A stretch of DNA of 29,996 nucleotides from a virus. Below the pieces are notes generated by a model. That model was not told the DNA's origin, made no database searches, and was given only the letters and a program-made list of their open reading frames with translations. The stretch is from positions 1-29,996 of IMG/VR virus record IMGVR_UViG_3300042924_003398. One strand, 5' to 3'. Every line of letters begins with the position of its first letter. The stretch's first letter is position 1. The position numbers and the translations under genes are program-made. This document shows positions 2,717 through 15,923 of this stretch, one piece after another.

Positions 2717-2880
2717 CCCGCTCGCAAGTCGACGCAATCCTCGACCGTCTCGACGTGCATTCGAAGAAGCTCGACGAGGTTCGTTCCGACGTCGATAAAA
2801 TCAAGGGAGGGCTAATCGTAATCGGGGCCGCCGTCGGTGCGGGTCTCCTCGGTGCGTTAATGCAACTCTTCGCGCAGTAA
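2713..2880 (+). CDS. Small XhlA-like holin accessory membrane protein
   Basis: A 55-residue product with an amphipathic, heptad-like N-terminal half (VDAILDRLDVHSKKLDEVRS) and one C-terminal membrane segment of about 20 residues (about 34-53). This is the layout of XhlA/haemolysin-type lysis proteins, which pair with holins. The start overlaps the fibre stop (ATGA) and the stop overlaps the next start (TAATG), so it is translationally coupled at the head of the lysis genes. The family is assigned from architecture; it could also be an unrelated tail-anchored coiled-coil protein. Confidence 0.6.
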   Translation: MTRSQVDAILDRLDVHSKKLDEVRSDVDKIKGGLIVIGAAVGAGLLGALMQLFAQ

Positions 2881-3905
2881 TGCGAATCCGCGCGATCGCA
2901 CTCTTCGTCGCGGTCGTATTCGCGACCCTCGGTATTCGCCCGGTGCAGGGCGCACAATGGAATTTAATTACGGAGCCGACCGACCTCGCGATCCTCGTCT
3001 CCGAGCCGACGATCTTCGAAGCCCGTTCGGTGTTGTGTTATCCCGAGCCCGTCGGATCTTGCCCGAACCTCGTCGACTCGCACCTATGGCTTTACGATTC
3101 GGCGGGTCTTCTCCTCGCTGCGAACGATGACTCTCTCGGCGAGTACGGTTGGACGCTCGCTTCGCATATCTCGATCGAGCTCGCACCGGGGGAATATCGA
3201 CTCCGCGCGGGTCGATGCTGCGGCAATCCCGACGCGACGTGGGAAGCGGGTCGAACCTATTACGTCGAGACAAGTCTCGACGCTATCCCCGGAGTGACTC
3301 CTTCTCCGTCGATCGAGCCCACGCCCGAGCCTACCGTTGAACCTACGGTCGAGCCTACGGTCGAACCTACGCCCGAACCGACTCCCGAGCCGACGATTGA
3401 ACCTACGCCGGAGCCGTCTCCGACCGTGACTCCCGAGCCGACCCCGAGCCCTACGCCCGAGCCTACGCCGAGCCCAACTCCCGAACCGACTCCAACGCCC
3501 GAGCCGTCGATCCCTGCGCCTCCCTCTTCCTCACCGAAGCCGACGACTCCTCCTCCGTCTCCGACCGAACCTCCGCCTACGCCGACGGAGCCTCCTCCGA
3601 GCCCAACCGAGGAGCCGCCAATTCCAACCGAGGAGCCTCCGCTTCCGACCGAGCCTCCTCCTTTCGAGCTACCCGATCCGGGCGAAGCCGCGCAAGCGAT
3701 CGCCGACGCAATCGGTAACGCTGCGGAATCCGTAGGTGAAGCGGTCGCCGCTATTGCGAACGTCGGTTCGGATCTCTCGCCCGTCGAGCGGGAGCGGGTC
3801 GCGAAAGTCGCGATCCCTGCGGTTATCATTTCGCAAGTCGGAGCGGCCGTCGCAGCGGCGGGAGCTGCGGCGGCAACTGCGAGCAGTTCAAGGAAAGGGA
3901 AGTAA
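2880..3905 (+). CDS. Secreted PPC-domain protein with Pro/Glu/Thr spacer and hydrophobic C-terminus
   Basis: The product (341 aa) starts with a clear signal peptide (residues 1-24; hydrophobic core, then VQGA-Q). Residues of about 30-130 resemble the bacterial pre-peptidase C-terminal (PPC) beta domain, with the pattern LWLYDSAGLLLAANDDS followed by a LAPGEYRLRAG strand, and four cysteines. Residues 140-265 are a Pro-Glu-Pro-Thr spacer in many near-repeats, grading to Pro-Pro-Ser/Thr-Glu. The end (about 310-335) is Ala/Val/Ile hydrophobic and closes with SSSRKGK, like a tail anchor. A cell-surface or wall-spanning location is inferred. It sits between holin-like genes, so a role in lysis, superinfection exclusion or surface modification is possible; none is proven. 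I do not recognise a named family for the whole protein. Confidence 0.7.
   Translation: MRIRAIALFVAVVFATLGIRPVQGAQWNLITEPTDLAILVSEPTIFEARSVLCYPEPVGSCPNLVDSHLWLYDSAGLLLAANDDSLGEYGWTLASHISIELAPGEYRLRAGRCCGNPDATWEAGRTYYVETSLDAIPGVTPSPSIEPTPEPTVEPTVEPTVEPTPEPTPEPTIEPTPEPSPTVTPEPTPSPTPEPTPSPTPEPTPTPEPSIPAPPSSSPKPTTPPPSPTEPPPTPTEPPPSPTEEPPIPTEEPPLPTEPPPFELPDPGEAAQAIADAIGNAAESVGEAVAAIANVGSDLSPVERERVAKVAIPAVIISQVGAAVAAAGAAAATASSSRKGK
3301..3675 (+). repeat. Coding repeat: Pro-Glu-Pro-Thr spacer
   Basis: Degenerate 6- to 12-base in-frame repeats encode (E/S)PTPEP-type units, changing at about 3540 to PPPSPTEPP-type units. They form an extended, glycosylation-prone spacer inside the secreted protein. 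The repeats also create a long false minus-strand Gly/Ser/Val frame. Confidence 0.85.
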
Positions 3906-10159: not shown

Positions 10160-10377
10160 TCTCGTACGAATTCGCCGAAGAGGTAACGCGTTTTAAGAAA
10201 GCGTATTCGGAGATCTTCAAGACGGAGCCGCACTTCGTCGTCGATATCGGGGAGCGAATCTCGGTATCGGTCGTCGGTGCAGCGGGAAGCGTCGTCGGGA
10301 TTGGGTCGAACTTTCAAGACGCGGTCGTCGATCTCGGCGTCGCAATGATCCACGTCTCCCGGACGGTGAAGCCGTGA
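10156..10377 (+). CDS. Hypothetical protein between annealing protein and initiator
   Basis: A 73-aa alpha/beta product with four-base overlaps on both sides. It has no Cys or membrane segment and a Val/Gly-rich middle. I do not recognise it; the position suggests a recombination or replication accessory. Confidence 0.6.
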   Translation: MISYEFAEEVTRFKKAYSEIFKTEPHFVVDIGERISVSVVGAAGSVVGIGSNFQDAVVDLGVAMIHVSRTVKP

Positions 10378-10817
10378 AGGGTCGGCCGTGGGCGAAGTTC
10401 GACGTCGGTATGCCGAAAGACGGGAAAGTCGCGACGCTCTCTTCGGACGGGGTTCGATGGGCGTTCGTCGCGATCGTCCTCGCAGCGAAGGAGCAGGATC
10501 GGCAAGGGTTTTTCGATTCACTCGCGCACCTAAAAGCGGTCGTCTCGACGACCGTCGCGGACTGCGTCGAGGAGCTCGTCGATAAGGGTCTTCTCTCGGT
10601 CGATCCCGACGGCGTGATCCACGTCTCCCGTTGGACTCGATATCAAATTGACCCGACCGCAGCGGCTCGGGCGAAAGCGTATCGGGAGCGAAAGCCGGAG
10701 CCCGTCTCGGACGTACCCGCAGGGGTGCGTTTCCGTGATCGAGTTCCTCCTCCTCGTTCCTCGAAGGGGACGCCGCAGTCGATCGCGTCGATCGTTCGTA
10801 ATACGGTCGAATCGTGA
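10374..10817 (+). CDS. Replication-initiator-like winged-helix protein
   Basis: The 147-aa product starts with GTG and has the layout of phage replisome-organiser N-terminal domains: a conserved WAKFDVGMPKDGKVATL start, a helical body with an HTH-like DSLAHLKAVVSTTVADCVEELVD region and a beta wing ending VIHVSRW. A segment of form YQIDPTAAARAKAYRER follows, typical just before the DnaC/DnaB-recruiting part in relatives. Here the protein is short, with only a Pro/Arg-rich tail. It probably binds the origin; the helicase loader may be the host's. Confidence 0.6.
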   Translation: MKGRPWAKFDVGMPKDGKVATLSSDGVRWAFVAIVLAAKEQDRQGFFDSLAHLKAVVSTTVADCVEELVDKGLLSVDPDGVIHVSRWTRYQIDPTAAARAKAYRERKPEPVSDVPAGVRFRDRVPPPRSSKGTPQSIASIVRNTVES

Positions 10818-11389
10818 GCGGGTACGGAATGCGAATCGTGATCGACGACGAACTCCGGGCGAGGGCTCGCGAGCTCTACCCGAAGGGACTCGATCCCGAG
10901 ACGGCGTATCTCGGCGAGGAGGCTCTTGTCGCGGGTGCATTCGGCGAGGCCGCATTCGAGCGGGCTCTCTCGATCCTCGGGCTTCCCGCTCCGGCATACG
11001 TCGGGTATCAGCGGAAGCCGTGGGACTTCGAGGGGGAGCCGTTCGGGACGGTCGACGTCAAGACGAAGCCGCGCAGCGTTCCTCCGCAGGGAACCTACGA
11101 GGCGGGGATCGCAGTCGAGCAGCTCGCGAAAGAGGAGAAGCCCGCGATCCTCGCGTTCGTCTCGCTCTATCCGAAAGCGTCTCGTCCCGGCTACTACTAC
11201 GAGGAGGCGTGGATCGTCGGGTATATGCCGACCGAACGCTTCGAACGCTTCTCGTATCTCGTCCCCGAGGGTTCGCCTATGGGGAACGGGACGTCGAAGT
11301 CGTGGCGAGATATGCGGGACGTCAAGCTCGCGCAGTTATGGCCGATCGAATGGCTCGTACCCTTCGATAAACGGGAGGGTAACGCGTGA
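10814..11389 (+). CDS. PD-(D/E)XK nuclease-like protein
   Basis: GTG start overlapping the preceding gene by four bases. The 191-aa product has GEAAFER (E45/E49) in a helix, then DFEGEPFGTVDVKTKPR, giving Asp71 and Asp81-x-Lys83, the PD-(D/E)XK signature. An aromatic region follows (GYYYEEAWIVGY). It could be an endonuclease or a restriction-like or repair enzyme; it resembles the small VRR-type or phage exonuclease-like nucleases but I cannot place it in a named family. It ends the first early gene block, before a 100-base intergenic region. Confidence 0.6.
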   Translation: MSGYGMRIVIDDELRARARELYPKGLDPETAYLGEEALVAGAFGEAAFERALSILGLPAPAYVGYQRKPWDFEGEPFGTVDVKTKPRSVPPQGTYEAGIAVEQLAKEEKPAILAFVSLYPKASRPGYYYEEAWIVGYMPTERFERFSYLVPEGSPMGNGTSKSWRDMRDVKLAQLWPIEWLVPFDKREGNA

Positions 11390-11394
11390 TTATT

Positions 11395-11419
11395 CCGTGA
11401 CGGATCGTACGCGTCACGG
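11395..11419 (+). promoter_or_regulatory. 8-bp inverted repeat in the 11390-11490 intergenic region
   Basis: CCGTGACG (11395-11402) and CGTCACGG (11412-11419) are perfect inverted repeats around nine bases. No T-run follows, so an operator or origin element is as likely as a terminator. Confidence 0.5.
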
Positions 11420-11425
11420 TACGAG

Positions 11426-11460
11426 ACGTAGACTTGATACGTAGACTTGATACGTAGACT
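11426..11460 (+). repeat. Tandem 13-base direct repeats, candidate promoter array or iterons
   Basis: Two full copies and one partial copy (nine bases) of ACGTAGACTTGAT lie head to tail at 11426, 11439 and 11452. Each copy contains TAGACT, the same hexamer used as -10 at 12622, and the junctions make TTGATA, -35-like. TATTAA follows at 11463. The array may be a multi-start promoter, operator or iteron set for the DUF1599-like gene at 11491. Confidence 0.75.
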
Positions 11461-11490
11461 CTTATTAAAGAGGGAAAGTGAGGCTTGAAA

Positions 11491-11922
11491 ATGAGCGAGG
11501 CAATGCAACCGGAGAAGGAGCAGCTCCCCATTCTGCACGACGGAAAGGGACGTCCCTTCTTCGAATATTTACTCTTCCCGTACTACGTGGAAGCGTTCGA
11601 GATTCTCGTCGAGCGTCAAGGGAAATACGGCCCGAAGAATATCCTCGACGCAGGGGTTTACGGGGTCGTCGAGCAGCTTCGGAATAAAGTCGAACGAGCG
11701 TCGGCGCAACTGCGCGGATCGGTCGTCGATGGGCGGGTCGAACTCGAACCTATGGACGAGGAGACGAAGAAAGTCTTTCGGGACTCGCTTCTCGATCTCG
11801 CGAATTACTCGATAATCGCTCTCGCACTCTCCGAGGGACTATGGGTCGCCGATATGGTGCTCGACCCGACCAAGCCGGCTCGACCCTATGGGCTCGACGT
11901 CTCGTGGATTGGGGAGGGTTGA
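11491..11922 (+). CDS. DUF1599-like (nucleotide-modification-associated) protein
   Basis: The ATG at 11491 is chosen over a TTG at 11485 because GTGAGG lies about seven bases upstream. The 143-aa product has KYGPKNILDAGVYGVVEQLRNKVERA and later DSLLDLANYSIIALAL, which match the helical core of DUF1599 proteins (MazG-like fold), found in phages near nucleotide metabolism genes. The expected role is nucleotide handling or hydrolysis; no modification enzyme is visible nearby, so the biochemical role is open. It heads a new gene block after the repeat-bearing intergenic region. Confidence 0.6.
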   Translation: MSEAMQPEKEQLPILHDGKGRPFFEYLLFPYYVEAFEILVERQGKYGPKNILDAGVYGVVEQLRNKVERASAQLRGSVVDGRVELEPMDEETKKVFRDSLLDLANYSIIALALSEGLWVADMVLDPTKPARPYGLDVSWIGEG

Positions 11923-11924
11923 CG

Positions 11925-12128
11925 ATGAAGGAGACAACCGAGGAACTTCTTTACGCGATCCGCTCGTTCGTACGGATTCACGGGTACGCACCGACGATCC
12001 GCGAACTTGCCGAGGAGCTCGACGTCGGTCACTCGACGATCGCGAAGGGGCTAAACGAGTTAATTAACTTCGACAAGATCCGCCGAGACGCAGGGGTCGC
12101 GCGCGGGATTGTCGTCCGGGAGGAGTAA
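11925..12128 (+). CDS. Stand-alone LexA-type DNA-binding domain
   Basis: The ATG follows GGGGAGG by about seven bases. The 67-aa product aligns over its whole length with the N-terminal winged helix of LexA: an initial helix (TEELLYAIRSFVRIHG), the conserved YAPTIRELAEEL turn, the recognition helix (GHSTIAKGLNELI) and the wing with GVARGIVV corresponding to ASRGIRL in LexA. The C-terminal autoprotease and dimerisation domain, with its Ser/Lys dyad, is missing, and the frame stops cleanly where the DNA-binding domain ends. It could bind LexA boxes without being cleaved after DNA damage. A LexA box lies in the phage early promoter at 6983-7000. The start also fits translation coupling to the gene before. 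Confidence 0.85.
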   Translation: MKETTEELLYAIRSFVRIHGYAPTIRELAEELDVGHSTIAKGLNELINFDKIRRDAGVARGIVVREE

Positions 12129-14455: not shown

Positions 14456-14465
14456 ACTCTCGACG

Positions 14466-14538
14466 GGGCCGCGTGGACGCTTCGCTTTATCCCGAGAGAT
14501 GAGCGGGGGAACCCGAGGTTCGACTCCTCGGCGGCTCC
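14466..14538 (+). other. tRNA-like relic or candidate attachment-type sequence
   Basis: GGGCCGC (14466-14472) can pair with GCGGCTC (14531-14537) as a 7-bp acceptor stem with one G-U pair. A perfect T-arm lies before it: CGAGG-TTCGACT-CCTCG (14514-14530). The 41 bases between fit tRNA spacing, and CCCG/CGGG can form most of an anticodon stem, but the D-arm does not fold and loop position 33 is A rather than U. It is not a functional canonical tRNA. A decayed tRNA, or a copy of a host tRNA 3' end as in attP sites, are the alternatives. Confidence 0.35.
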
Positions 14539-15329: not shown

Positions 15330-15376
15330 CCGACCCCCCAAGCCGCAGACGGTCGGGGAGGTTTTTCGGTTTTTGT
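15330..15376 (+). terminator. Terminator-like hairpin before the ParB-like gene
   Basis: CCGACC (15330-15335) pairs with GGTCGG (15351-15356); T-runs follow at 15362 and 15370. A competing stem, GGGGGGT (15294-15300) with ACCCCCC (15333-15339), would disrupt it, which suggests an attenuator-like switch. Confidence 0.45.
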
Positions 15377-15410
15377 TACCGAACGGGTTTCGGTTCGGAA
15401 CTCGAACCGT

Positions 15411-15416
15411 TACACT
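15411..15416 (+). promoter_or_regulatory. Leaderless promoter -10 (TACACT) of the packaging operon
   Basis: TACACT is followed by six bases (CGGCGA) and the ATG at 15423, with no Shine-Dalgarno site. A dyad CGGTTCG/CGAACCG (15391-15397 and 15403-15409) lies directly upstream and could be an operator. This is the likely start of late packaging and structural transcription. Confidence 0.65.
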
Positions 15417-15422
15417 CGGCGA

Positions 15423-15923
15423 ATGAGTAAACCCCTACGGAATCGAATCGTCGGACTCGGGGCGGAAGATCCCGAGCAGCTCCTCGCGAACCCCGGTAAT
15501 TTCCGCGGTCACCCTATCCGACAACGGGACGCGCTCCTCGCGCTCCTCGACGAAGTCGGGTTCGTCGCACCCGTGATCGTGAACCGGACGACGGGTCACC
15601 TCGTCGACGGGCATCTTCGCGTCGAGCTCGCTCTCTCGCGAGACGAGAAAGCGATCCCCGTCTCGTACGTCGAACTTACCGCAGACGAGGAGCGGCTCGT
15701 CCTTGCGACGTATGACCCGGTCGGAGATCTCGCCTATGCGGACTCCGCTCGCCTCCGTGAACTCCTCGAAGACGTGACGTCGGGCGAAGCCGCAGTTATG
15801 CAACTGCTCGCGTCCGTCGCGACCGAGGCGGGCGTCCTCGACGCGGTCGTAAACCCTACGCCCAAGCCCGAGCGGAAGGTAACTTGCCCGAGCTGCGGCG
15901 AGGAGTTCGCTCCTCGTGGGTAG
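15423..15923 (+). CDS. ParB-like nuclease-domain protein with C-terminal zinc ribbon
   Basis: Start fixed by the leaderless promoter. The 166-aa product carries the ParB/Srx motifs: NPGNFRGHPIRQRDALLALLDEVGFVAPVIVN, then GHLVDGHLRVELAL (the GxxRxxA-type box) and the DPVGD segment. Phage ParB-like proteins next to terminase are often linked to DNA modification or packaging regulation. The C-terminal CPSCGEEF is half a zinc ribbon. The last eight bases overlap the small terminase gene. Confidence 0.8.
   Translation: MSKPLRNRIVGLGAEDPEQLLANPGNFRGHPIRQRDALLALLDEVGFVAPVIVNRTTGHLVDGHLRVELALSRDEKAIPVSYVELTADEERLVLATYDPVGDLAYADSARLRELLEDVTSGEAAVMQLLASVATEAGVLDAVVNPTPKPERKVTCPSCGEEFAPRG

Follow-up and report, generated by a model that had tools for sequence, protein, structure and literature searches.

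We analyzed a 29,996-base phage contig deposited as an IMG/VR record (hereafter, the window) around a gene encoding a 67-residue LexA-type protein, MKETTEELLYAIRSFVRIHGYAPTIRELAEELDVGHSTIAKGLNELINFDKIRRDAGVARGIVVREE. The features of the locus are collected in Table 1. The open reading frame (ORF) starts with an ATG at 11925 and closes with a TAA at 12126–12128. A gene distantly related to the DUF1599/Nmad1 family ends 2 nt before this ATG, and a zinc-ribbon gene starts at 12128, inside the stop codon. No Pfam family scored for the window copy of the DUF1599/Nmad1-like gene; its distant relatives L014 and L015 matched PF07659 at 1e-7.

Table 1 Features at and around the gene for the LexA-like protein
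Feature	Position	Strand	Basis
End of upstream operon: replication-initiation-like gene (phrog_3926) and conserved unknown gene	10374..11389	+	Similar surroundings in distant relatives
Intergenic region, putative promoter of the DUF1599/Nmad1-like gene and the LexA-like gene	11390..11484	+	Homologous gap also present in three further genomes
Candidate operator or hairpin: inverted repeat CCGTGACG-N9-CGTCACGG	11395..11419	.	7-bp arms kept in two relatives
Overlapping palindrome TCGTAC-N8-GTACGA	11405..11424	.	Identical in two relatives
13-bp tandem repeats TAGACTTGATACG, 2.5 copies	11429..11460	+	Sequence
Distant member of the DUF1599/Nmad1 (nucleotide modification associated) family	11491..11922	+	76 related loci; PF07659 match of relatives
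LexA-type winged-helix protein, 67 aa, DNA-binding domain only	11925..12128	+	ORF, Pfam, fold, same-length orthologues

The window encodes a terminase, a portal, a protease, a major head protein, a tape measure and an exonuclease, together with a PD-(D/E)XK nuclease, a primase-like fragment and a replication-initiation-like gene. A related genome, G001 (29,745 bases), aligns over nearly its full length with its order circularly permuted, and the ends of the window fall within 80 bases of each other on it. The window therefore probably represents an almost complete genome of about 30 kb that is circularly permuted. By large terminase, the closest cultured relative is Pontimonas phage phiPsal1 (41%), a 31-kb phage with a circular map that is described as lytic (PMC6106888) and has a head-gene order similar to that of the window. 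Given this relationship, the host is probably an actinobacterium. The phage itself is probably lytic. Neither a tyrosine integrase (Phage_integrase) nor a resolvase-type recombinase (Resolvase) was found in the window or in the related genomes G001, G003 and G004. A nucleotide search among cultured phages returned no match, and no homologue of the LexA-like protein was matched in phiPsal1 at tblastn sensitivity.

Elsewhere in the window, positions 3297–3661, within the ORF at 2880–3905, consist of long proline-rich-coding repeats with 12- and 21-bp periods. A tRNA-like element lies on the plus strand between two genes at 14464–14538, with a 7-bp acceptor-like stem, a TTCGA-containing T-arm and a 3′ end reading ...GGCGGCTCCA. 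It is kept in both L003 and L007, and one or more changes in its central hairpin, read by eye, preserve the pairing; a normal D-arm is missing, and neither Rfam nor ARAGORN, the latter at its default settings, called it as a tRNA. As a possible clue to the host or an attachment site, we looked for a matching bacterial tRNA gene, and the exact 3′ end was absent from the bacterial genomes searched.

A stand-alone LexA-type DNA-binding domain

The preliminary description of this locus had read the product as a LexA winged helix that stops where the DNA-binding domain ends and lacks the autoprotease, a reading that profile and fold comparisons bear out. The top Pfam family was LexA_DNA_bind (PF01726; E = 1.6e-7, 31.4 bits against a cut-off of 23.7), with residues 6–61 aligned to profile positions 9–65 of 65; GntR, ranked second, fell under its own cut-off. 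NCBIfam lexA (TIGR00498) aligned residues 4–66 to positions 7–70 of 203 with a score of 32, far under the full-length cut-off of 110.95, as expected for a protein with the DNA-binding domain only. When a profile was built from ten short LexA-like proteins (six of this protein's group and four from cultured phages), LexA structures were the first matches, down to 3.6e-16.

AlphaFold, run on a thin input alignment of four sequences, predicted three helices and a two-strand wing (pLDDT 77, pTM 0.63). Both Foldseek and VIA-align ranked LexA first for this model (PDB 3k2z, 3jsp), and the best LexA superposition reached Z 11.9 over 67 residues, in line with the structural expectation that had accompanied the preliminary description. 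The winged helices of MntR and DtxR followed closely (Z about 10–11), as expected for so small a fold. The predicted recognition helix spans residues 36–44, and sequence comparison showed that LexA proteins have other residues in this helix and in the helix-turn-helix (HTH) turn. We considered a shortened HTH turn as a mark setting the group apart from LexA and rejected it, as Thermotoga maritima LexA is equally long there.

The C-terminal S24 autoprotease and dimerization domain of a full LexA, with its Ser/Lys dyad, is absent: the protein ends at residue 67, the zinc-ribbon gene begins at 12128 with no S24 remnant 3′ of the stop codon, and no Peptidase_S24 domain was detected in the window or in the three related genomes. 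By sequence and predicted fold, then, the protein is a LexA-type DNA-binding domain and nothing more, of the length (about 60–80 residues) that marks a phage-encoded truncated LexA.

The short form is conserved. Five other phage contigs carry complete orthologues, all of 66–67 residues, at identities of 90% (L002 and L003), 53–54% (L013), 48–49% (L114) and 43–45% (L115); a further orthologue, in L012, is cut by the contig end. Among the three closest copies (window, L002 and L003), dN/dS was 0.05–0.16 and changes fell chiefly at third positions, which indicates purifying selection. With orthologues of the same length and a low dN/dS, the short form is no accident; the protein is a stable stand-alone one, not a broken LexA. 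No bacterial or prophage copies were found in a search of genome contigs. L013 shares the gene order of the window around the protein. No intergenic gap precedes the gene in L114 and L115, where it comes directly after the replication-initiation-like gene or after that gene and one more. These similar surroundings in the window, L013, L114 and L115 place the gene in a replication/recombination module.

A conserved palindromic block in the upstream gap

Within the gap ahead of the DUF1599/Nmad1-like gene, a 31-bp block (11395–11425) is 90–97% identical in a three-genome alignment, while its flanks are mostly at or below 50–70% identity upstream and about 73% downstream. The block contains the inverted repeat and the overlapping palindrome listed in Table 1. 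By chance, such palindromes would be only moderately unusual: a palindrome with 7-bp arms arises in about 5% of shuffled gaps, and the window holds 18 perfect 6-8-6 repeats. TCGTAC-N8-GTACGA is unique in the window when no mismatch is allowed. The homologous gap of the distant relative G004 is without these palindromes and has at the same place CCGTTACAAAAGCGTTACGGGTAACGG, containing the perfect palindrome CGTTAC-GG-GTAACG, which has the 6-2-6 geometry of the site bound by gp6 of the Bacillus tectivirus GIL01. The tandem repeats have a counterpart there as well, 2.5 copies of a 14-bp unit whose sequence is unrelated to the 13-bp unit of the window, and in both genomes they may be promoter elements or origin iterons.

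We regard the conserved nested-palindrome block as the best operator candidate for the LexA-like protein. A fair alternative is that it could act as the transcription terminator hairpin of the gene ending at 11389; the inverted repeat can form an 8-bp RNA hairpin just past that stop codon.

The preliminary description had placed a LexA box in the early promoter, by which it may have meant TCGTAC-N8-GTACGA. This palindrome has LexA-box spacing, the same as that of the Escherichia coli box, and its sequence is not a known SOS box; to our knowledge, no actinobacterial LexA uses it. For this phage, whose host is probably an actinobacterium, canonical SOS boxes of four common types were absent from the noncoding gaps of the window. 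Across the whole window, the actinobacterial box CGAACRNNYGTTYG had no exact match and six one-mismatch matches against 4.6 expected; GAACN4GTTC occurred twice (3758 and 6986, both within ORFs) against 1.05 expected; and GTTCN7GTTC occurred five times, each time within an ORF. There were no matches to CTGTN8ACAG or RGTACNNNDGTWCB. The LexA box is not confirmed; what the noncoding DNA holds is a palindrome with LexA-box spacing. The proposed two-part system of protein and promoter site keeps its general shape, in that a protein–operator pair is plausible and a conserved palindromic block lies one gene upstream, but the block contains no known SOS box.

Candidate roles of the protein

GIL01 gp6 is a truncated LexA homologue made up for the most part of the DNA-binding domain. 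It recognizes not LexA boxes but the palindrome GaCACAnnTGTGaC, which overlaps the −35 element of the late promoter P3, and activates that promoter; purified gp6 binds DNA by itself, the recognition-helix change K38A abolishes binding, and host LexA binds its own boxes beside the gp6 site without interference (PMC6182141). Because gp6 is the one close experimental precedent, and the one protein of this kind for which regulation of phage transcription has been demonstrated, the simplest and, in our analysis, most likely model is that the protein regulates a phage promoter through a palindrome of its own, most likely the upstream block. We think it probable that the protein is a transcription factor of the gp6 type, a truncated LexA homologue binding its own palindrome and timing a phage operon. 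The LexA domain, its maintained short form, the place of the gene in a replication/recombination operon of an integrase-free phage of ~30 kb, and the palindromes in the gaps of the window and G004 fit this reading. As a winged helix with neither sensor nor protease part, the protein would be insensitive to RecA and to DNA damage. On phage DNA it would bind its palindrome as a dimer, either weak or DNA-induced, and set the timing of an operon. As the best candidate site, 11395–11425, precedes the two-gene unit that includes the protein's own gene, it would probably act on its own promoter, either as repressor or as activator. Autoregulation from an adjacent promoter cannot be general, because L114 and L115 are without the intergenic block.

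The preliminary description had instead proposed an uncleavable SOS antagonist: by sitting on the LexA boxes of the host, it would prevent SOS genes from being switched on after damage, or it would act as a partner of host LexA. The LexA-like domain, the missing S24 part and the LexA-box spacing of one of the overlapping palindromes fit this proposal, as does the slowed growth of Mycobacterium smegmatis on expression of a LexA-like protein with the DNA-binding domain only from phage Wildcat (PMC7474061). We nonetheless consider it very unlikely. The noncoding DNA of the window holds no known SOS box, the HTH-turn and recognition-helix residues are unlike those of LexA proteins, and the gp6 precedent activates phage genes from a different site while coexisting with LexA (PMC6182141); the Wildcat protein, gp13, co-precipitated a cell-wall scaffold protein and not LexA (PMC7474061). 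The argument that a lone DNA-binding domain has to partner host LexA also loses force, because gp6, once purified, binds DNA unaided. SOS antagonism finds no positive evidence in this analysis and is not needed to account for the locus. In a related scheme, a lytic actinophage would combine a LexA winged helix lacking the protease with TCGTAC-N8-GTACGA, a palindrome of LexA-box spacing that overlaps a second one. Host LexA would then compete with the phage protein for a single promoter, or two forms of the phage protein would compete with each other, and the switch would be tied to the damage state of the host. We regard this scheme as a long shot.

The best alternative to a gp6-type regulator, though an unlikely one, is a replication accessory protein that binds the tandem repeats at 11429–11460 as origin iterons and helps to start phage replication. 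The window and G004 have tandem repeats of unrelated sequence, 13 and 14 bp long, at matching places, and the gene lies near the phrog_3926-like initiator in all lineages, even those without an adjacent gap. Against this role stand the known function of LexA-type domains as transcription factors, the phrog_3926 protein as the more plausible initiator, and a cumulative GC skew that shows no turn at the site; the repeats themselves may be elements of a promoter, TAGACT being similar to a −10 hexamer. A role as lysogeny repressor in a temperate phage, the one annotated in F116-like phages, is decidedly unlikely. Those phages, which carry a 69-residue LexA-like protein, are indeed temperate (PMC13028781), but the window and its three relatives encode no integrase or resolvase-type recombinase, the relative phiPsal1, described as lytic (PMC6106888), gave no match to the protein, and no divergent repressor-style gene pair surrounds the gene. 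The integration genes of a temperate phage with a CI-type repressor were not found in the four genomes; a ParB-like domain protein at 15354–15920 leaves a small chance of plasmid maintenance.

Comparison with known phage LexA-like proteins

LexA proteins with the DNA-binding domain only are already annotated in several cultured phage groups, and the sequence comparisons make the window protein a further example of this known phage kind, not a full LexA. On such short phage proteins, the label LexA is wrong as to the protease and unsupported as to SOS. In many of the F116-like Pseudomonas records (H1–H14), the matched genes are labelled "SOS-response repressor and protease"; the protease part of this label is wrong, because the F116 homologue has 69 residues and can hold no protease. 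That homologue (YP_164276.1) likewise has the DNA-binding domain only, is 38% identical to the window protein over the alignment and 44.6% over the aligned core, and is also encoded by an operon gene that has exonuclease and recombination genes for company. Unlike the window phage, F116 is temperate and infects Pseudomonas, and its protein has a longer N-terminus.

Among other cultured phages, phage Wrath has an annotated LexA-like protein of 82 residues with the DNA-binding domain only. The "LexA" of Psychrobacillus phage PVJ1 has the same length of 67 residues and the same domain as the window protein; unlike the window gene, beside which no such genes were found, it lies directly before dinB and a YolD-like gene, and a link of the PVJ1 protein to damage-response genes is plausible. 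The PVJ1 region (L118, 1501–2960) is a better place than the window to seek a phage LexA domain tied to such genes. The protein gp13 of mycobacteriophages Wildcat and Cosmo (77 residues) is a LexA-like protein with the DNA-binding domain only in an actinophage operon of small genes; it differs from the window protein in a longer N-terminus and one extra HTH-turn residue. Wildcat gp13 is reported to be toxic on expression and to co-precipitate Msmeg_1285 (PMC7474061).

Compared by published description, GIL01 gp6 resembles the window protein as a truncated phage LexA made up mainly of the winged helix and encoded by an early gene amid replication and regulation genes. GIL01 differs in being a temperate tectivirus, maintained by host LexA together with gp7, and gp6 acts through its LexA-distinct site at the late promoter P3; for the window protein, a candidate site lies before its own gene unit. 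Should the regulator reading be true, the gp6 type of regulator, a LexA domain that has lost its damage sensor, would extend beyond Bacillus tectiviruses to tailed phages of actinobacteria that are small and probably lytic, and one 67-residue protein with one conserved 31-bp block would make a simple test pair.
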